Shown: positions 13,156 through 41,368 of the stretch, in pieces | How positions within the stretch are numbered: position 1 is the stretch's first letter | Layout of the letters: every line of letters starts with the position of its first letter | NCBI RefSeq assembly: GCF_029889745.1 | Contig: NZ_CP123639.1 | Span: 872,501-936,500, forward strand | Source: Ligilactobacillus faecis | GTDB lineage: Bacteria; Bacillota; Bacilli; Lactobacillales; Lactobacillaceae | DNA length: 64,000 nt | Direction of reading: 5' to 3' | Position numbers and translations under genes: made by a program | The notes under the pieces: model-generated | The model's input: the letters and a program-made list of their open reading frames with translations, nothing else | Told to the model about the DNA's origin: nothing | Database searches by the model: none

Positions 13156-13278
13156 ATGAATGCTATTTTGGAATTACAGACTCTAGGATTTGAGAATGTA
13201 CGTGATGCTCGTGTTCCAAACGGTTCAGGATCATCATCATCTAGTCTTTCACATAGTTCGATCAGCATTTTTTGTTGA
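13156..13278 (+). CDS. class III lanthipeptide precursor
   Basis: A 40-codon gene. The leader begins MNAILELQTLGFENVRDAR; ILELQ matches the (I/L)LxLQ motif that class III synthetases recognise. The C-terminal part is serine-rich: PNGSGSSSSS then LSHSSISIFC. Ser32 and Ser35 with Cys40 fit the labionin pattern Ser-x2-Ser-x(3-5)-Cys; Ser37-x2-Cys40 could instead form a lanthionine. The single cysteine is the last residue. It has an optimal RBS and lies directly before a LanKC gene. The leader cleavage site is unknown (family members use housekeeping or dedicated peptidases; none is encoded here). Confidence rests on the motif, composition and neighbour; the gene is short enough to be missed by standard callers. 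Confidence 0.88.
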   Translation: MNAILELQTLGFENVRDARVPNGSGSSSSSLSHSSISIFC

Positions 13279-13286
13279 TAAAGTTG

Positions 13287-13314
13287 GGCTGGTAATTAAT
13301 TACTGGCCTTTTTT
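13287..13314 (+). terminator. attenuator between precursor and synthetase
   Basis: GGCTGGTAATT / AATTACTGGCC form an inverted repeat with two G-U pairs, followed by TTTTTT. It lies between the precursor stop and the LanKC start. A leaky terminator here would give more precursor than enzyme mRNA, a usual arrangement in lanthipeptide operons. Confidence 0.8.
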
Positions 13315-13339
13315 ATTAACTAGATATCGATTAGAAAAT

Positions 13340-15970
13340 ATGGAGTTATTTGATTATACCAATTATGTAGCAGAAAATAATTTTTTCTATAGAAAAGATG
13401 ACAATGTTCGTCTAGATAATCTAGACCTATTTGAAATAAGACAGCCACTAGGAAAGGATTGGGTAGTATATGTCGACAAGTATTGGCATAATGTTATAAA
13501 TAAGAAAAATTTTTCAATAAAACAAGGATGGAAGATTCATATCACAGCAGATATAGATGATGCACAAAAGATGCTAGAGGAAATATCTGAATTTTTAATA
13601 AAAAAAGAGATATCTTTTAAATTTGTAACCTCTAAACAAGAGTTATGGCGGAAAAATAGCAAGCAGGGAGATAAATCTGCTGTGGGAAAATTTATCACGG
13701 TTTATCCTCAGAATGAAGAAAGCTTTTGCATTCTTTTAAATGAATTAAAAAGTATAACAGATTCATATAAAAAAGGTACCTATATTTTAAATGATTGTTG
13801 TTGGCAAGAGAGTAATGTATTTTTTAGGTATGGTGGGTTTATTAGGAATGAACAAATCATCAATGGTAAAAATGTACTTGTAATTGAAGATGATGAGGGA
13901 AATTATATAGAAGATAAGCGAACCCCATATTATTCAGTACCAAGTTTTATATCTGAACCTAACTATGTTAAAAAATTTAATACATTTCCTGATTCGAAAG
14001 AATTTGAAAAAATAAAAAATCTTAATATAAATGAAGTTATACATTTTAGTAATTCTGGTGGTGTATATAAATTTGAAGATCGTAAAAAATCATATATTTT
14101 AAAAGAGGGTAGATTTAAATCAGGGTTAGATGGATTGGGAAAAGATGGATTTAAAAGAAATAAAAATGAGTATAGAAATCTATTGTTATTGAAAAAAGTA
14201 CCTAATGTAATTGATGTATATAGTTACTTTGAATCTTGGAGAAATAGCTACTTTATAGAGGAGTATTTTGCTGGAGAAACTTTGAGAAAATTTGTGGCAT
14301 CCAATTACCCACTGCTAATTGAAGATGATGCTAGTGATTACTTATATTTAGTGGAGATTGTCGCTAAAAAATTGTTCTCTACATTAGAAGATATTCATAG
14401 TAATGGTATAGGTATTGGGGATTTGAGCATTAATAATATTATGATTTCTAAAGAAGACGAAGATATTGTTATAAAAATTATTGATTTAGAAAATTCTCAA
14501 TTGATATCTACAAAGTATGAACATACATTGGTTACACCAGGCTTTTTTGCAAAAAATATCTCTAGTATAGTTGAAGCTGATTGGTTTAGTTATATTAGAA
14601 TTATAAGGTATATGTTATTACCTATAAATTTTGTTCAAGATTTTGTAAAAGATATAGTTACAGTTCAAAATGAAATTATTGAAGAAAAATTTGGCAGAAA
14701 TGTAAAGGATATTTTACAGATTTTGGATAATGTACAGCTAAAGAAGATTCATTCTGATTATAAATTACCATATCAAGTTGAAGGTTTATCAGTTGTGCAA
14801 GAAAAAATAGATTTTCAAGATATAGGAAAGTATATCTCTAGTTTAGAATTGGGATTAAATAACACTATGCTCAGGAATAATACTTTAGATATTAATGGAG
14901 ATATTCCTCAATTACATAACGAATGGGATAGGTATAATGTATCCAACGGACTTTTTGGGGCATTGTTAGTAATAAATAGGGTAAGTAAGTTAAATAAAGG
15001 GGCATTGAACAGCAAGATTGAAGTGATAATTGAGAATCTTTATACAATTAGAGATACTCGTTTGGGATTATTAGATGGAGTAGCCGGAGTTGTAACAGCG
15101 TTGCTTGAAATGGGATATTGTGATTATGCTGAGAATTTATTGAACTTATATACAGTTGATAGTGTGCGGACGTATAAAGAAGATATATCTTTGGAAACTG
15201 GTCTAGCTGGAATTGGATTGTTCTTATTAGGCCTATACAGAGTTAATAAGGATACAAAAGATTATACACTTTGTTTAGAGATTCAAAAACTTATCATAGA
15301 TAAAATAAAGAACATGTCTAAGAGTGATGAAGTTGATGTTAGCTTATTTCAGGGATTGAGTGGACCGCTACTGTTCTTGGTATTACTTAGAAATGAATTG
15401 CATCCAACAGATAGACAAGATATTTTTTTGGAAAAATTACTGGTTATGATACTTGATCAGATTCAGTTTGATGATACTATGAGATCAGCCTTTATTCTGA
15501 ATAAAGAGAAGAAGTATGATCGAATAGTACCATATCTAAAAAATGGTGTGATAGGTTTAGGACTAGTCCTTCTAAAAATAGATGAACAAAAAATTTTTTC
15601 TAGAAGTATATCCCAAAGATTAAAAGATATATTAAACCATATGCTAAAAATAATAAGAGTTACATTTTCATTTGATGCAGGCCTATATGAGGGACAATTA
15701 GGAATTATATTGTTTGAATACTGTTATAACCATAGATATAACGTTGATAGTAACTATACGGTGAAATTATTGCAAAATTTGAAATTGCATCTTCTTTATA
15801 AAAATAATGAATTACATGTTACTGGCAAGTATGGCTTACGCTGTTCGCAAGATATTGCTACTGGGGCGGCTGGAGCTCTATCAGTTTTAGAGGGGATCAG
15901 GCGTTCTAATTGGGGGTATTGGTTACCTATTTTGGATTTTGAAGAACTATTTAAATTTAAAGATAAGTAA
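13340..15970 (+). CDS. class III lanthipeptide synthetase LanKC
   Basis: An 876-residue three-domain enzyme. Residues 1 to about 220 form the OspF-like phospho-Ser/Thr lyase region. A protein-kinase domain spans about 235-480: glycine loop SGGVYKF, lysine in YILKEGR, catalytic loop IGDLSINNIM and metal site IIDLENS in place of DFG. A LanC-like cyclase follows (about 515-876) with GLFGAL and DIATGAAGAL repeats; it lacks the Cys/Cys-His zinc ligands of class I, II and IV cyclases, which defines class III. It would phosphorylate, dehydrate and cyclise the peptide encoded upstream. I chose ATG 13340 because an upstream in-frame start at 13190 would overlap the precursor. RBS is weak (TTAGAAAAT). 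The gene is markedly AT-rich (ATA, AGA, AAT codons), unlike the surrounding genome. Confidence 0.93.
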   Translation: MELFDYTNYVAENNFFYRKDDNVRLDNLDLFEIRQPLGKDWVVYVDKYWHNVINKKNFSIKQGWKIHITADIDDAQKMLEEISEFLIKKEISFKFVTSKQELWRKNSKQGDKSAVGKFITVYPQNEESFCILLNELKSITDSYKKGTYILNDCCWQESNVFFRYGGFIRNEQIINGKNVLVIEDDEGNYIEDKRTPYYSVPSFISEPNYVKKFNTFPDSKEFEKIKNLNINEVIHFSNSGGVYKFEDRKKSYILKEGRFKSGLDGLGKDGFKRNKNEYRNLLLLKKVPNVIDVYSYFESWRNSYFIEEYFAGETLRKFVASNYPLLIEDDASDYLYLVEIVAKKLFSTLEDIHSNGIGIGDLSINNIMISKEDEDIVIKIIDLENSQLISTKYEHTLVTPGFFAKNISSIVEADWFSYIRIIRYMLLPINFVQDFVKDIVTVQNEIIEEKFGRNVKDILQILDNVQLKKIHSDYKLPYQVEGLSVVQEKIDFQDIGKYISSLELGLNNTMLRNNTLDINGDIPQLHNEWDRYNVSNGLFGALLVINRVSKLNKGALNSKIEVIIENLYTIRDTRLGLLDGVAGVVTALLEMGYCDYAENLLNLYTVDSVRTYKEDISLETGLAGIGLFLLGLYRVNKDTKDYTLCLEIQKLIIDKIKNMSKSDEVDVSLFQGLSGPLLFLVLLRNELHPTDRQDIFLEKLLVMILDQIQFDDTMRSAFILNKEKKYDRIVPYLKNGVIGLGLVLLKIDEQKIFSRSISQRLKDILNHMLKIIRVTFSFDAGLYEGQLGIILFEYCYNHRYNVDSNYTVKLLQNLKLHLLYKNNELHVTGKYGLRCSQDIATGAAGALSVLEGIRRSNWGYWLPILDFEELFKFKDK

Positions 15971-16044
15971 TTTGAGTAGAGAAAAATAAAGATCTATCGG
16001 AAAACGTAAAACATGAAGTAGATCTTTATGAACGGTGATAGGTA

Positions 16045-16119
16045 ATGAAGAAAAGAAATATTTGTTTTCCTAAATGTAGGTCGATAAACTACATTGTTCA
16101 TGTTTTATATCGAGGGTAA
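16045..16119 (+). CDS. possible 24-residue peptide gene
   Basis: A short frame, MKKRNICFPKCRSINYIVHV plus four residues, sits between the synthetase and the ABC genes with GGTGATAGG in front. It is basic and has two cysteines but no class III leader motif. An inverted repeat (AAAGATCTA at 15988-15996 and TAGATCTTT at 16019-16027) precedes it without a T run. It may be a chance frame or a translational lead-in to the permease, whose ATG is three bases downstream. Confidence 0.25.
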   Translation: MKKRNICFPKCRSINYIVHVLYRG

Positions 16120-16122
16120 ATT

Positions 16123-16824
16123 ATGAAACAAATATGCGCATTAAGTCGGATTTTTTTTCTTGAGGCTCTGAGTAATAAATTTGTTTTGATTTTTAATCTT
16201 ATTCTGCCAGTCGGGATCTTTCTTGCAAATAATACACAAGGACTGCCACGTAATTTAAATGAAGCTCTTCTTATAGAGCAACTTAGCCTTTATTGGGGCT
16301 ATATTATCCTTGTGACGATCTTCAATTCAATTATTCTAAATGTGGTAGCGCAAAAAGAAAGAGGGATATATTTAGAATATACGTTGATTTCAAGATCTAA
16401 ATATCAAGTATTTATAGCACTAGTATTAGTTCAACTAGGTACGATTTTTACTGAGTTACTACTTTTTAACAGCATAGCTTTATTCATCTTTCCGACGTTG
16501 AGGTATTTGAAGTTACTCGAAATTACATTTCTAGGAACTTTTTTAGCAGTGCCTGTGATCGGAATATTGAGTCTGTTGTTGCTCTTAAAAACAAATGAGC
16601 GTACTTTTTCAGTCATTGAAATTATCTTGATCTTTACTTTATTTTTGCTAGATGATGTCAAAGGACGATCTGAATTTATTTCTTTGCTGAATCCATTGAA
16701 TTATTTACGCCAGATATTGATCTTACATGGGAGTTGGAGCGATTTTTTACTAGTGACGTTCATATATTTAATAACAGGCTGGATGAGTCTTGTAAAATTT
16801 GATGTTAGACCACAGTATAAGTAG
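16123..16824 (+). CDS. ABC-2-type permease of the lanthipeptide locus
   Basis: A 233-residue membrane protein with six predicted hydrophobic segments and the layout of ABC-2/CcmB-like permeases (NIILNVVAQKERGIYLEYTLISRSKYQVF loop after the second segment). It pairs with the ATPase nine bases downstream. In class III loci such a pair exports the peptide or protects the producer; sequence alone does not say which. Codon use is closer to the host than that of the synthetase. The sequence is not similar to any family I can name more precisely. Confidence 0.75.
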   Translation: MKQICALSRIFFLEALSNKFVLIFNLILPVGIFLANNTQGLPRNLNEALLIEQLSLYWGYIILVTIFNSIILNVVAQKERGIYLEYTLISRSKYQVFIALVLVQLGTIFTELLLFNSIALFIFPTLRYLKLLEITFLGTFLAVPVIGILSLLLLLKTNERTFSVIEIILIFTLFLLDDVKGRSEFISLLNPLNYLRQILILHGSWSDFLLVTFIYLITGWMSLVKFDVRPQYK

Positions 16825-16833
16825 GGGATCGAT

Positions 16834-17376
16834 ATGCAAATAAGTAATTTAGATAATTTAGTGTCGCTGTTTGAAGAAGATAAATTGAATATTTTGACTG
16901 GGAAAAATGGAAGTGGGAAAAGTACTCTCTTGGATCAGCTTGCTGGGCTCGGGGGACAAACAAGTATTTTTAGCTCTAAGAGTATTGCTTATAAATTACA
17001 AAAGAACTATTTTTTTCCAGATCTAACGGTAGCGCAGACCTTAGCATTATATGACAAAATGACTATTGATCAACAGCATAAAAAGTGGTTAGCGCAATTT
17101 TACCAAGATAATATCCAGGATAATTTAAGGGTCAAGATGGGAAATCTGTCAGGTGGACAACAACAACTTGTTTTAGATTATGGCATACTCCTTTTGAAAC
17201 GAGATGTTTATTTGTTGGACGAACCATTAACGGGAATAGACGAAAAAAATGCCAGATCGTTATATGAAATTTTTGTAGACATAGCCCAGTCTAAAGATAA
17301 AATGGTCATCGTCGTTGAGCACGATCGAAACATCATTGATACTTATAAGTCTGTGGCTAATATTATCACGCTATGA
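16834..17376 (+). CDS. ABC transporter ATP-binding protein of the lanthipeptide locus
   Basis: A compact 180-residue ATPase: Walker A GKNGSGKST, Q-loop region (YKLQKNYFFPDLTV), signature NLSGGQQQLVLDY, Walker B DVYLLDEPLTG and the switch His in VIVVEHDRN. All ATP-site motifs are present, but it is about 20-50 residues shorter than usual at the N-terminus, where the first beta strands are reduced. RBS GTAGGGGATC. Last gene of the lanthipeptide operon; probably exports the product or gives immunity with the permease before it. Confidence 0.88.
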   Translation: MQISNLDNLVSLFEEDKLNILTGKNGSGKSTLLDQLAGLGGQTSIFSSKSIAYKLQKNYFFPDLTVAQTLALYDKMTIDQQHKKWLAQFYQDNIQDNLRVKMGNLSGGQQQLVLDYGILLLKRDVYLLDEPLTGIDEKNARSLYEIFVDIAQSKDKMVIVVEHDRNIIDTYKSVANIITL

Positions 17377-34645: not shown

Positions 34646-34792
34646 ATGTTGATTGCCATTTTGTCATTACCGCTATTGTATTTGTTGCTAAAGGATAGAT
34701 TGAAGGGATTTGATTTATTTGAAGCTCTTCATATCGGTTTTTATGTTGTACTTGTTCTGTATCTTTTATGGAAAGGTGGATTTTTGTTATGA
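34646..34792 (+). CDS. small cationic membrane protein, likely circular-bacteriocin immunity
   Basis: A 48-residue protein with two hydrophobic helices around a basic turn: MLIAILSLPLLYLLLKDRLK then GFDLFEALHIGFYVVLVLYL and LWKGGFLL. Strong RBS (AGGAGG). Its stop overlaps the start of the bacteriocin gene (ATGA). Circular-bacteriocin loci encode hydrophobic, basic immunity peptides of about 50 residues next to the structural gene, and this fits in size, charge and place. The role is inferred from that. Confidence 0.7.
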   Translation: MLIAILSLPLLYLLLKDRLKGFDLFEALHIGFYVVLVLYLLWKGGFLL

Positions 34793-35070
34793 TGAAAATT
34801 TTTAAAAGATTGATCGTTGTTGCAATGCTTAATATGTTATTATTTTCAACATTTAGTTCTATGAGTGCTACAACAGTATCGATGTTAACTGGTCAAATGG
34901 GAATTAACGCTACTGTTGCCACTCAAATTACATCAATGCTGAATGCAGGGGCTACTGTATGGGGAATTATCGCAATATTAGGTTCGTTAAATGTTGTAGG
35001 TGCTGGAGTTCTATTTACTGCAAAGGCGATGTTAAAAAAATTAGGAACTAAAGCTGTCGTGTCTTGGTGA
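34789..35070 (+). CDS. circular bacteriocin precursor (class I circular, uberolysin/AS-48 superfamily)
   Basis: A 93-residue precursor. A hydrophobic leader of about 32 residues (MMKIFKRLIVVAMLNMLLFS..) precedes a 61-residue core starting LTGQMGINATVATQITSMLN and ending AKAMLKKLGTKAVVSW. The core has the hallmarks of circular bacteriocins: first residue Leu and last residue aromatic Trp for head-to-tail ligation, small-residue-rich hydrophobic helices, no cysteines, and a basic patch near the C-terminus (KAMLKKLGTK). By eye it resembles leucocyclicin Q and carnocyclin A in length and pattern (for example L..QLGIS at the start). ATG 34789 or 34792 follows AAAGGTGG. The cleavage site M32/L33 is my inference from those alignments. 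Confidence 0.85.
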   Translation: MMKIFKRLIVVAMLNMLLFSTFSSMSATTVSMLTGQMGINATVATQITSMLNAGATVWGIIAILGSLNVVGAGVLFTAKAMLKKLGTKAVVSW

Positions 35071-35137
35071 CGAATAATATCTTCGTATAGAAATGTAAGA
35101 AATTCTTGCATTTCTATTTATTTTAGGAGAGATAAAA

Positions 35138-35653
35138 ATGTTAAAGAAGATAAGTTTACTTTACTGTATAACTTTGTTAGTGATGGGATGTTTGATTATA
35201 TTTTCTCTGTACTTTAAGTGGTATGATAGTAGCTTTGAACTAGTGATTTCCAAATCTATATTAGAGATTTTCCTGAATAATATAGGAGTATTTGGCAAAA
35301 TTGTTATGTTGTCGATAATATCATTTGGTTTTTTGGGTTCTATACTGATCATGAGTAATTTGTTGATATTAGCAGTAAATGTATCAGGCATTCTAGCTAT
35401 TTATGGTTTGAAAAAATTTTTATTGGTAATGTGCTATGGGCTTTTTGAGCTGTCGTATCTACCAGTATCAATGTATTTAATAATTCAAATTGTTGATATT
35501 TTTTTAGATATCTATAAAAACAAAAGTCTATCGATAAAGTACTTTTTCAAATTTAGCGGGCAAGTAAAGAATTTTATAAGAGTGTTGATTATAGAAATGT
35601 TCATACTTATGTTTGCAAGTGTTTTAGAATTTTACATAGGTGAGTGGTTATAA
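35138..35653 (+). CDS. SpoIIM/DUF95-like membrane protein of the bacteriocin locus
   Basis: A 171-residue protein with four to five membrane segments; LLYCITLLVMGCLIIFSLYF opens it and GVFGKIVMLSIISFGFLGSI follows, the arrangement of SpoIIM/DUF95 proteins. All circular-bacteriocin loci known to me carry a DUF95 membrane protein required for maturation, secretion or immunity, so context supports the call. RBS TAGGAGAG. Very AT-rich. It overlaps its downstream neighbour's RBS. Confidence 0.7.
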   Translation: MLKKISLLYCITLLVMGCLIIFSLYFKWYDSSFELVISKSILEIFLNNIGVFGKIVMLSIISFGFLGSILIMSNLLILAVNVSGILAIYGLKKFLLVMCYGLFELSYLPVSMYLIIQIVDIFLDIYKNKSLSIKYFFKFSGQVKNFIRVLIIEMFILMFASVLEFYIGEWL

Positions 35654-35655
35654 TT

Positions 35656-36171
35656 ATGAATTTTGAAAGTATGAAGCTAAGATACTATATATTGTTATTT
35701 TTTCTGCTACAGTTTTGTATTACAGTAATGTCGTATATGTTATTTGGAAAATTTGAAGTGATTTTGCGTAAATTCGATGTTAGCCAAATAGCGGTGATTC
35801 TATTAGTTGTTGCAGTTGCAAATTTTTGTGTAACGCTAATTGGGTTTACATTATTATCCATTTTTTTGGATATTATATTAGTGTATATTGCTGAATATAA
35901 AGATGGATATAAAAAAATTTTAAAATTATTATTATTGGTAAGCTTAATTCAAATATTGAAAATAATTTTAGAATATCTATTTAGCATAAATATTAATATA
36001 CATTCATTTGATCAAATAATATTTGATATATTTTTCAAAATAATTGAATTAATACTTTTGAGCGTTTTAGCTTATAGTAACTTTGAAAAATATGTGGCAA
36101 ATATATTAGTAATATCACTATTTATATTACAAATTATTAGTTATATAGGAATGCATTTTATTTTAGGATAA
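35656..36171 (+). CDS. membrane protein of the circular-bacteriocin locus
   Basis: A 171-residue protein with four or five hydrophobic helices (YYILLFFLLQFCITVMSYML; AVILLVVAVANFCVTLIGFT) and charged loops. I do not recognise it beyond resemblance in size and topology to the accessory membrane proteins (CclC/UblC-like) of circular-bacteriocin clusters. I chose ATG 35656 with AGGTGAG ahead instead of the overlapping GTG at 35644. Last gene of the AT-rich segment; no ATPase follows. Confidence 0.65.
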   Translation: MNFESMKLRYYILLFFLLQFCITVMSYMLFGKFEVILRKFDVSQIAVILLVVAVANFCVTLIGFTLLSIFLDIILVYIAEYKDGYKKILKLLLLVSLIQILKIILEYLFSININIHSFDQIIFDIFFKIIELILLSVLAYSNFEKYVANILVISLFILQIISYIGMHFILG

Positions 36172-36840: not shown

Positions 36841-37283
36841 ATGAAAGTCACTTATCGGCAAGTAAGAGCGGCGTTAGATGAGCTCAATGTCATCGTTGAG
36901 AGCCAAAAACAAACGCCTAAAGTCGACCGCAGTATATCAAAGGTTTTGAGCAAACCTCAGATAAACTCCCACTCAAAACAAAGACTGGTGTTGTTTTAGT
37001 GAAAAGAGCAGAGCTTATTTTGCTTGAAGTCGAAGGTAAAGAGCTGACATTTTATACGCTGACGCAAAAATTTACCGTCAAAGGAAGCTTGAAACAGATC
37101 AAAGAACGCCTACCTGAGCCAAATTTCATTCAAGTCTCTCGTTATTCACTGATCAATATCGAATATTTGTTGGCGATCGAAAATAGCTTTTCTGGGACGA
37201 TGGTCGCTAAGTTGACGAATGATCTAAAAACTTCGGTCAGTCGAAAGTATGTCCCAGCGATCAAAGAATACTTAGGACTTTAG
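36841..37283 (+). pseudogene. LytTR-family DNA-binding protein, frameshifted
   Basis: The first frame reads MKVTYRQVRAALDELNVIVE then SQKQTPKVDR and soon stops at 36997. The continuation is in another frame: QYIKGFEQTSDKLPLKTKTG then VVLVKRAELILLEVEGKELT and the full LytTR domain to 37283 (NFIQVSRYSLINIEYLL). The switch lies near 36925-36935. Together the pieces make a normal-length (about 147 residue) LytTR protein of the type paired with DUF3021. A GTG at 36999 could start a 94-residue LytTR-only product. Either a true frameshift mutation or a sequencing error at the junction. Confidence 0.8.
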
Positions 37284-37294
37284 GAGGGAGCAAA

Positions 37295-37666
37295 ATGCGG
37301 ATCTTTGGACGACGTTTTTTTGCAGGTATCGGTTTTGCGGCTACGATCTATCTCGTGAGTTTAGCGCTTGGGCATGCCACGAAAGCCCCGACGCTTTTAG
37401 AAGTCTTTTTAGTCTTGTTCACAGGCGGTCTGATCGGACTATGTAGTTTAGTTTTTGAGCTCGAGCTAAGCTATCTCGCCGCTTTAGGACTCCACTTTTG
37501 TTTGACCGTGCTACTTGTAAGTGGTTTGATCTGGAGCGCTGGGTGGTCTTTTAGTTATCAGACGTTTAGGATGATCGGCGCGATCTATTTAGGTGTGTGG
37601 CTCTTTTTGCGACTGACGCAAAGAAAAGAGCTAGCACAGATCAATCAAAAATTGAAGGAAAAATGA
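37295..37666 (+). CDS. DUF3021 family membrane protein
   Basis: A 123-residue protein with four membrane helices (FFAGIGFAATIYLVSLALGH; GGLIGLCSLVFELELSYLAA) and the size of DUF3021. DUF3021 proteins sit next to LytTR regulators and are thought to control them, as here (11-base gap). RBS TAGGAGGG. With the partner frameshifted the module is probably inactive, though this gene is intact. Confidence 0.85.
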   Translation: MRIFGRRFFAGIGFAATIYLVSLALGHATKAPTLLEVFLVLFTGGLIGLCSLVFELELSYLAALGLHFCLTVLLVSGLIWSAGWSFSYQTFRMIGAIYLGVWLFLRLTQRKELAQINQKLKEK

Positions 37667-37706
37667 ACTACTGGATCGTGATCAGATCCAGTAGTTCATT
37701 TTTTAG
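37661..37706. terminator. terminator after the DUF3021 gene
   Basis: AATGAACTACTGGATC / GATCCAGTAGTTCATT, a 16-bp stem overlapping the stop codon and followed by T6. Confidence 0.9.
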
Positions 37707-39806: not shown

Positions 39807-41368
39807 AAAGACGTCGACTGACGTCTTTCAGAATGTAGACTAAGTCATCAGAGTATGTGCTCTGGTGACTTTTTTTTGTATAATTAAAGAAAACGGTTAC
39901 GGAGGTGCTCATTATGCTTCACAAAAGTGATCCCAATCTCAAACGCTGTGAATATGCTCGTACTTCTCTAGATGATTTGGTCCCAAAAGATCATTTACTC
40001 CGTAAAATTGATCAAATTATTGATTTCTCTTTTATTTATGATCTTGTCGAAGATTCCTATTGTAAAAATAATGGTCGTCCTAGTCTTGACCCTGTACTAC
40101 TCATAAAGATTCCTTTGATCCAAAATCTATTTGGTATTCGTTCTATGCGTCAAACGATCAAAGAAATTCAAGTTAATGTCGCTTATCGATGGTTTCTAGG
40201 ACTAGGTTTAAATGATCCTGTTCCTCATTTCTCTACCTACGGTAAAAATTATAAAAGAAGATTTGCTGAAAGCCATGTAATAGAAGCTATTTTTGCTCAT
40301 ATTTTGAAACTCTGTTTAGAAAATGATCTTATCGACACAACTGATATCTTTATTGATGGAACTCATTTGAAAGCTGCTGCTAACAGCCGTAAATATACTA
40401 CTGAAGTTATTGAAACTAAGTCAAAATTTATGAGTGAAGATCTCGAAAAAGAAATAAATGTAGATAGAGCTAAACATCAAAAGAAACCCTTAAAAGAAGA
40501 AAAACCTAAAAAAAAACTAGACAAGTAAAAATATCTAAAACTGATCCTGATAGTGGATGGTTTCATAAGGGTGAACACAAACAGGTTTTTGCCTATAACG
40601 TTCAAGCTGCCTGTGATAAAAATGGGTGGCTCTTAGCTTATGTGGTCGGTGCGGGAAATATCCATGATACGCAACTTTTTCCTGAAATATTTGAAAAAGT
40701 ACGGAAGTACGACCCACAATATATTATCGCTGATTCTGGCTATAAAACACCCACGATCGCACACTTTTTACTATCTCAAGGCATAATTCCCATTCTTCCT
40801 TATAAACGCCCAAGGGGCAAAGTTGGTACGCTTAGACCCAAAGATTTTGTTTATGATGAATATTATGATTGTTATTTATGTCCTGGCGATCAAATCTTAA
40901 TGTACTCCACAACTAATCGAAGTGGTTATCGTGAATATAAAAGTGATCCTACAATCTGTGAAAAATGTCCTTTACTGCACAAATGTACACAAAGTAAAAA
41001 TCATCAAAGAGTTATCGCTCGTCATGTTTGGCAAGATAGTATGGAAAAATGTGAGGATATCAGGCATCAAACTGGCTCAAAATTAAAGTATGAAGCGCGA
41101 AAGGAGACGATCGAAAGAAATTTTGGTTCGGCAAAAGAATATCACAACTTGAGATACGCCCGAGAAGTAGGAATTGATAAAATTCTAGCTAAAGTTGGGT
41201 TGATATTTGCGTGCCTAAATCTAAAAAAATTGGTAAAAATACTGGGGAAAAACCCTGTTATATTCGTATATTTCAAAGTATATAGTTATAAAAATACATA
41301 AAAAAACAAACTCTATCCGATTTGAATAGAGTTTGTCTACGTTCTGAAAGACGTCGACTGACGTCTTT
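39807..41368 (+). mobile_element. IS1182-family insertion sequence
   Basis: About 1.56 kb bounded by 34-bp near-perfect inverted repeats at 39807-39840 (starting AAAGACGTCGACTGACGTCT) and 41335-41368. The repeats differ only in the central GACT/AGTC and one base near the inner end. It carries one transposase gene. The right end lies 8 bases from the stop codon of the LysM-NlpC gene, whose own terminator it probably displaced. A clear target duplication could not be seen. Confidence 0.85.
39914..41301 (+). pseudogene. IS1182-family transposase, frameshifted at an A9 run
   Basis: The first part (39914-40528) begins MLHKSDPNLKRCEYARTSLD and has the DNA-binding and first catalytic segments (NLFGIRSMRQTIKEIQVNVA; DIFIDGTHLKAAANS with Asp). 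The second part, in the -1 frame, continues TRQVKISKTDPDSGWFHKG then ADSGYKTPTIAHFLL (Asp) and ETIERNFGSAKEYHNLRYAR (Glu). They join at AAAAAAAAA (40508-40516). Together they make a full DDE transposase of about 460 residues. Either the element is inactive or slippage at the A9 run restores a full product. RBS ACGGAGGTG. Confidence 0.85.

Follow-up and report, generated by a model that had tools for sequence, protein, structure and literature searches.

Five to seven genes have been given as the minimum for a circular bacteriocin cluster, and direct evidence for the gene product that closes the ring is said to be lacking (passages of PMC6131525). ABC genes were reported in every confirmed circular cluster and in 95 of 99 putative ones; the four ABC-less clusters were considered to be either vestigial remnants or systems exported by another transporter, and translational coupling was taken as a sign of function (passages of PMC7132975). 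A genome-mining study demanded an ATP-binding gene for inclusion, and ATPase-less loci would therefore have been excluded by design (excerpt of PMC8534725). An ABC immunity transporter has also been described as common to different bacteriocins (excerpt of PMC10598978). In the excerpted text of a 2026 review covering Ligilactobacillus, no passage was found on a locus such as the one described here (PMC13415356), and no title or abstract opening in the literature searched describes it.

Organization of the locus

The locus was found in the 2.38 Mb genome of Ligilactobacillus faecis, which is assembled in two contigs. It occupies positions 34646-36171 of the window, the whole stretch of 64,000 nucleotides that was analysed. 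Four intact, closely spaced frames on the plus strand, named I, A, C and X, lie in an AT-rich island whose GC content is 0.31 (34-35 kb) and 0.26 (35-36 kb), compared with 0.36-0.43 in the adjoining kilobases. I (34646-34792) encodes a 48-aa peptide with two transmembrane (TM) stretches, and A (34789-35070) a 93-aa precursor with a predicted 32-aa leader and 61-aa core. C (35138-35653) and X (35656-36171, with its ATG at 35656) each encode a 171-aa membrane protein. The I stop codon and the A start codon share bases in the motif ATGATGA, and two bases separate the stop of C from the start of X. Directly 3' of A is a 14-bp, attenuator-like hairpin (35087-35117, plus strand), and the A-C spacer (35068-35140) folds at -19.6 kcal/mol (z -4.48). 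Translational coupling and the hairpin after A show that this is an organised operon. Two stop-free stretches of at least 171 codons (184 and 175) are present in the island; even one of that length arose in just 0.1% of 2000 Markov resamplings of the island's plus strand. An earlier note, made by reading the letters alone, had described an AT-rich segment with a 48-residue basic membrane peptide overlapping a precursor, followed by two membrane proteins. The frames, their positions and the overlap agree with this description, and the word basic holds weakly at a pI of 8.1.

By eye, the island sits between two long glycosidase-like genes. A matching glycosidase gene was recognized by eye in stretches from five congeners, where it is followed by different genes: in G003, G017 and L. 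apodemi (G004) apparently by a single gene of 315-330 aa, in G023 and G021 by transporter-like genes. Therefore the interval is a variable site. An Rfam search of 33.85-38.0 kb gave a single match, to a microRNA and under threshold; it fell on a terminator-like hairpin and was taken as chance. Further downstream, a LytTR regulator, its frame apparently in two parts (36841-36999 and 36999-37283), is followed by a DUF3021 membrane protein (both within 36841-37666) and a perfect 19-bp inverted repeat with a 7-nt loop (37659-37703). An IS1182-type transposase lies in two pieces at 39905-41301.

A second AT-rich island (13156-17376) is likely a class III lanthipeptide locus. Its genes encode a precursor-like peptide of 40 aa, with a Ser-rich stretch and a Cys at its end, a synthetase with RamC_N, kinase and LANC_like domains, a 180-aa ABC ATPase and a 233-aa protein that looks like a permease and has no match in Pfam. 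Circular bacteriocins and a class III lanthipeptide have been noted in other genera (excerpt of PMC11594732).

The precursor

The precursor matches PF09221 over residues 35-93 at 24.7 bits, a narrow pass against a cut-off of 23.6, and at 23.6 bits when scored from the genome. TIGR03651 matches residues 33-93 at 25.9 bits, under its cut-off of 30.7, so that the profile search suggested in the earlier note was positive with the first model and fell short with the second. In a phmmer search of PDB sequences the best matches were carnocyclin A (4.2e-5) and enterocin NKR-5-3B (8e-5). The 61-residue core aligns with the family from end to end, its terminal residues L33 and W93 lining up with the ends of NKR-5-3B. 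It is cationic and hydrophobic, contains no Cys, has a pI of 10.5 and carries Leu and Trp at its ends. Its calculated average mass is 6159.3 Da in linear form and 6141.3 Da if cyclic (6137.40 Da monoisotopic). Based on this family match, A is predicted to be a circular-bacteriocin precursor, as the earlier note had proposed.

Among the loci fetched for comparison, the nearest precursor is that of L068 (36% over 61 aa, E 6e-5), and precursors from Enterococcus faecium plasmids are almost as near (E 9e-5). At E 0.001, family precursor matches were found in 7 of 397 genomes of the family and 9 of 395 of the order, the genome itself being included in both counts. Of 26 genomes from the genus, A was seen in its own alone: the 25 others gave no close relative, and none was confirmed in genome_contigs or viral_contigs. 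All plasmid relatives share less than 60% identity with A, and 108 of the 109 plasmid records matching the precursor belong to Enterococcus. A lone PF09221-type precursor was observed in another genome (G437, L069 7888-8169), with no cluster genes in its stretch and no terminal Trp of the usual kind.

The coupled peptide

The size of I, its two TM stretches, its pI and its coupling to A fit a putative immunity protein. No family was assigned to it in Pfam, NCBIfam or PHROG, and Pfam, NCBIfam and plasmid searches gave no likeness to a tested immunity protein. It had no match among plasmids or in viral_contigs, and in genome_contigs it matched L. apodemi alone. There, two relatives were found 38 kb apart (L098 8195-8308 and L050 6644-6799), one intact and one apparently decayed, and neither adjoins a precursor. 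Identity between I and the intact relative is 67% across the alignment, rising to 74% in its best 42 residues. The second is 63% identical over 38 aa; it looks decayed and lacks an in-frame start within the sequence read. Comparison of I with the intact relative over 42 codons gave dN of 0.16-0.18 and dS of 1.0-2.2, thus a dN/dS of about 0.08-0.15, which points to purifying selection on the I-type protein. No PF09221 match was found in the L. apodemi genome at E 0.001, and a search of the two stretches with parts of known clusters revealed no convincing A, B or C. When a two-member immunity profile was run against the 397 family genomes, the genome itself and the two places in L. apodemi were the only convincing matches; two further matches at E 0.002 were taken as chance. 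The L. apodemi relatives, in a genome with no PF09221 match, are also testable as immunity genes.

The two membrane proteins

C is identified as a divergent DUF95/SpoIIM protein, on evidence that is graded. An 11-member C profile spanning several subgroups and built without this protein scored it at 22.3 bits (E 1.8e-6). In that search the top score was 3.1 bits among 300 shuffles and 2.8 bits among unrelated membrane frames, from a library of 69 membrane frames that included C itself and four proteins used for the profile. The Pfam SpoIIM model gave 17.7 bits, under its cut-off; four C proteins from other clusters scored 12.8, 20.6, 25.0 and 34.6. With hhalign, C matched two groups of C proteins at E 6e-4 (probability 29%) and 1.7e-4 (49%). 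By comparison, the E-value was 0.27 when C was aligned with a profile of E proteins and 0.29-0.34 when X was aligned with those of C and E. An 8-member profile from a single C subgroup misses the protein. Its nearest counterpart is the C protein of L051, a cluster that by eye is AS-48-like. Searches for close relatives of C gave no plasmid match and, in the 294 other genomes searched from the order, one weak match.

X, with about six hydrophobic stretches, has no family in Pfam, NCBIfam or PHROG and no plasmid match, and a close relative was not found in the searches made. It scored -10 to -16 bits against the E, B and C profiles. Its assignment as a second C, an E or a half-size B was rejected because these scores were below the best shuffle, and its assignment as a copy of C because no convincing similarity was seen. 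X could replace the large membrane protein B, and is perhaps a new component.

Absence of the ATPase and of the large membrane protein

The locus was compared with 18 other precursor loci, of which 6 came from the family search, 9 from the order search and 3 from the 109 plasmid records. The ATPase D is present in 13 of them (L011, L013-L017, L051, L062, L063 and L065-L068). In two more, L012 and L064, the stretch is ended by contig ends. The remaining three (L009, L010 and L069) have no D: the first two are IS-flanked E. faecium plasmid loci with just a B stub, and the third is the lone precursor mentioned above. L009 (CP063580.1) and L010 (NZ_OR095733.1), the two Enterococcus plasmid records that were read, each carry an NKR-5-3B-like precursor and the B stub beside IS elements.

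A D profile built from 11 of the 13 D-bearing loci, with the D proteins of L068 and L017 left out, had no match in window 26.5-43.5 kb, where its best score was 3.7 bits. This bears out the observation in the earlier note that the locus is devoid of an ABC ATPase. Three other ABC matches in the window, at about 16.9, 18.5 and 49.9 kb, scored 77, 26 and 86 bits with this profile. The B profile likewise found no match in 26.5-43.5 kb; of the 13 D-bearing loci, it recognizes B in nine and misses L015, L051, L066 and L067, which carry other large membrane frames. A membrane frame of at least 364 aa is present in each of the 13, and the longest frame in the island is at most 175 aa.

A remote locus with D, E and a broken B

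The earlier note had suggested searching the genome for a matching ATPase, and such a search yielded one of the D type. Among 64 matches to the D profile in the whole genome, which has 67 ABC_tran matches, one outlier (G000:C1:225898-226470) scored 170 bits and the next 123. The genuine D proteins of L068 and L017, which had been withheld from the profile, scored 172 and 202 bits. The outlier lies about 680 kb from A. The ATPase of the lanthipeptide locus (window 16834-17376) was rejected as a partner, with 77 bits against these 170.

This second locus (L088, minus strand) contains intact frames for D (9471-8875) and E (8882-8394, 59 bits). Its B is broken into a piece at 10622-10329 and, in another frame, two pieces at 10332-9958 and 9921-9493 with an in-frame stop between them; the pieces scored 14-20 bits against B profiles. 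The lesions in B come from the one genome of the species examined and could be strain-specific or assembly errors. B leads straight into D. No match to the precursor family and no C were found at this locus; the C profile used there does find C in the related L016 (217 bits) and L068 (104 bits). The window locus, with A and C and no B or D, and the second locus, with D, E and a broken B and no A or C detected, are thus complementary. The D protein has its nearest relatives in L016 (48% identity), L068 (43%) and L017, the range being 43-48%. C, in contrast, is nearest to that of L051, which argues against an origin of the two loci by the splitting of a single ancestral cluster.

Whole-genome searches with the B profile and the 8-member C profile gave no match, and they missed the B remnants of the second locus and the C of the window, respectively. 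Another divergent B may therefore exist elsewhere in the genome. The best upstream motif shared by the two loci scored 21, a value also reached in 94 of 300 shuffles; because this likeness is no better than chance, joint regulation of the loci is unsupported. A lone E-type gene was seen in congener G017 (L091 9246-9755), with no D in the stretch, adjoining what by eye is apparently a pyruvate-formate-lyase-activating gene.

Interpretation

The reading that we hold to be somewhat probable is that I-A-C-X is a genuine but incomplete circular-bacteriocin operon which, with neither D nor a large membrane protein, is no longer self-sufficient. It draws on what is directly seen: the genes and their family ties (A in the PF09221 family, C of the DUF95 type), the lack of D and of any large membrane frame in the window locus, and a single remote D-type ATPase next to a B that lies in two frames with an in-frame stop. 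It also draws on L068, which among the loci fetched has the precursor nearest to A, and a D related to the remote one. B and D would once have been present in the window locus. A decaying second locus would retain D and E, and if the operon is expressed, ring formation and export of A would fail or proceed weakly via the remote D. Production would thus have been lost, and I, perhaps with D and E, may still protect the cell, immunity being the part under selection. Against a remnant, the four window frames are intact and coupled, which is unusual. In addition, X could stand in for B, and a B profile that misses 4 of 13 D-bearing loci leaves room for a divergent B elsewhere. The earlier note had proposed that the cluster either borrows an ATPase or serves immunity only. 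Both options are now concrete candidates, through the remote ATPase and the L. apodemi relatives of I.

The main rival is use of the remote ATPase in trans. Precursor, DUF95 protein and immunity would come from the window operon, D and E from the remote locus. The complementary gene sets, the intact D and E frames and the closeness of this D to that of L068, whose precursor is among the most A-like, speak for such a split, and genes elsewhere in the genome have been raised as a possibility (passages of PMC7132975). However, B is broken, the upstream regions share no common motif, C is nearest to that of L051, outside the L016/L068 group in which D falls, and the genes of tested clusters were called indispensable (passages of PMC6131525). 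We therefore regard a working split system as possible but rather unlikely. The fuller proposal, with biosynthesis divided over two loci 680 kb apart and X as a new membrane protein in place of B, is tentative to the same degree.

A self-sufficient minimal cluster, in which C and X would serve as membrane machinery either alone or with some housekeeping ABC ATPase, appears improbable. The four intact, coupled genes with a hairpin after A fit it, as do an X without known relatives, possibly a new component, and the 67 ABC_tran matches in the genome. However, an ABC gene was present in 20 of 20 confirmed clusters (passages of PMC7132975), and among the other precursor loci D is present in all but the two at contig ends, the two IS-flanked plasmid loci and the lone precursor. 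Least probable of all is a linear peptide exported via Sec and never circularised, for although the hydrophobic leader (MMKIFKRLIVVAMLNMLLFSTFSSMSA...) looks like a signal peptide by eye, precursors of complete circular clusters also have hydrophobic leaders, including that of L062, whose core equals the solved NKR-5-3B, and here a DUF95 gene is present and both core ends align with those of NKR-5-3B.

Comparison with known systems

The reduced operon that we favour is most similar to the uberolysin/carnocyclin-type systems (PF09221; carnocyclin A, enterocin NKR-5-3B). It shares with them the Cys-free 61-aa core with its high pI and Leu/Trp ends, the end-to-end match, a DUF95 gene downstream and a small two-TM peptide coupled to the precursor. 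It differs in that the identity of A to the compared members is just 21-41% in the alignments made, that D and the large membrane protein are lacking at the window locus, and that X is unassigned. The clusters with the D proteins nearest to the remote one come from the same family (L016 in G095; L017 in G063, whose precursor scores 22.6 bits with PF09221, under the cut-off) and the same order (L068 in G600). Unlike the window locus, they carry all of B, C, D and E next to the precursor. A natural operon with a precursor, a DUF95 protein, X and I only provides a ready-made subtraction test of ring closure. Like the ABC-less clusters (4 of 99 putative ones, in passages of PMC7132975), the window locus has a precursor without a local ATPase; in contrast to them as described in those passages, a decayed locus with B, D and E was traced here that offers a candidate remote ATPase. 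Clusters without an ATPase were thus already on record as an oddity; the present analysis adds the I-A-C-X gene set and the candidate partner locus.
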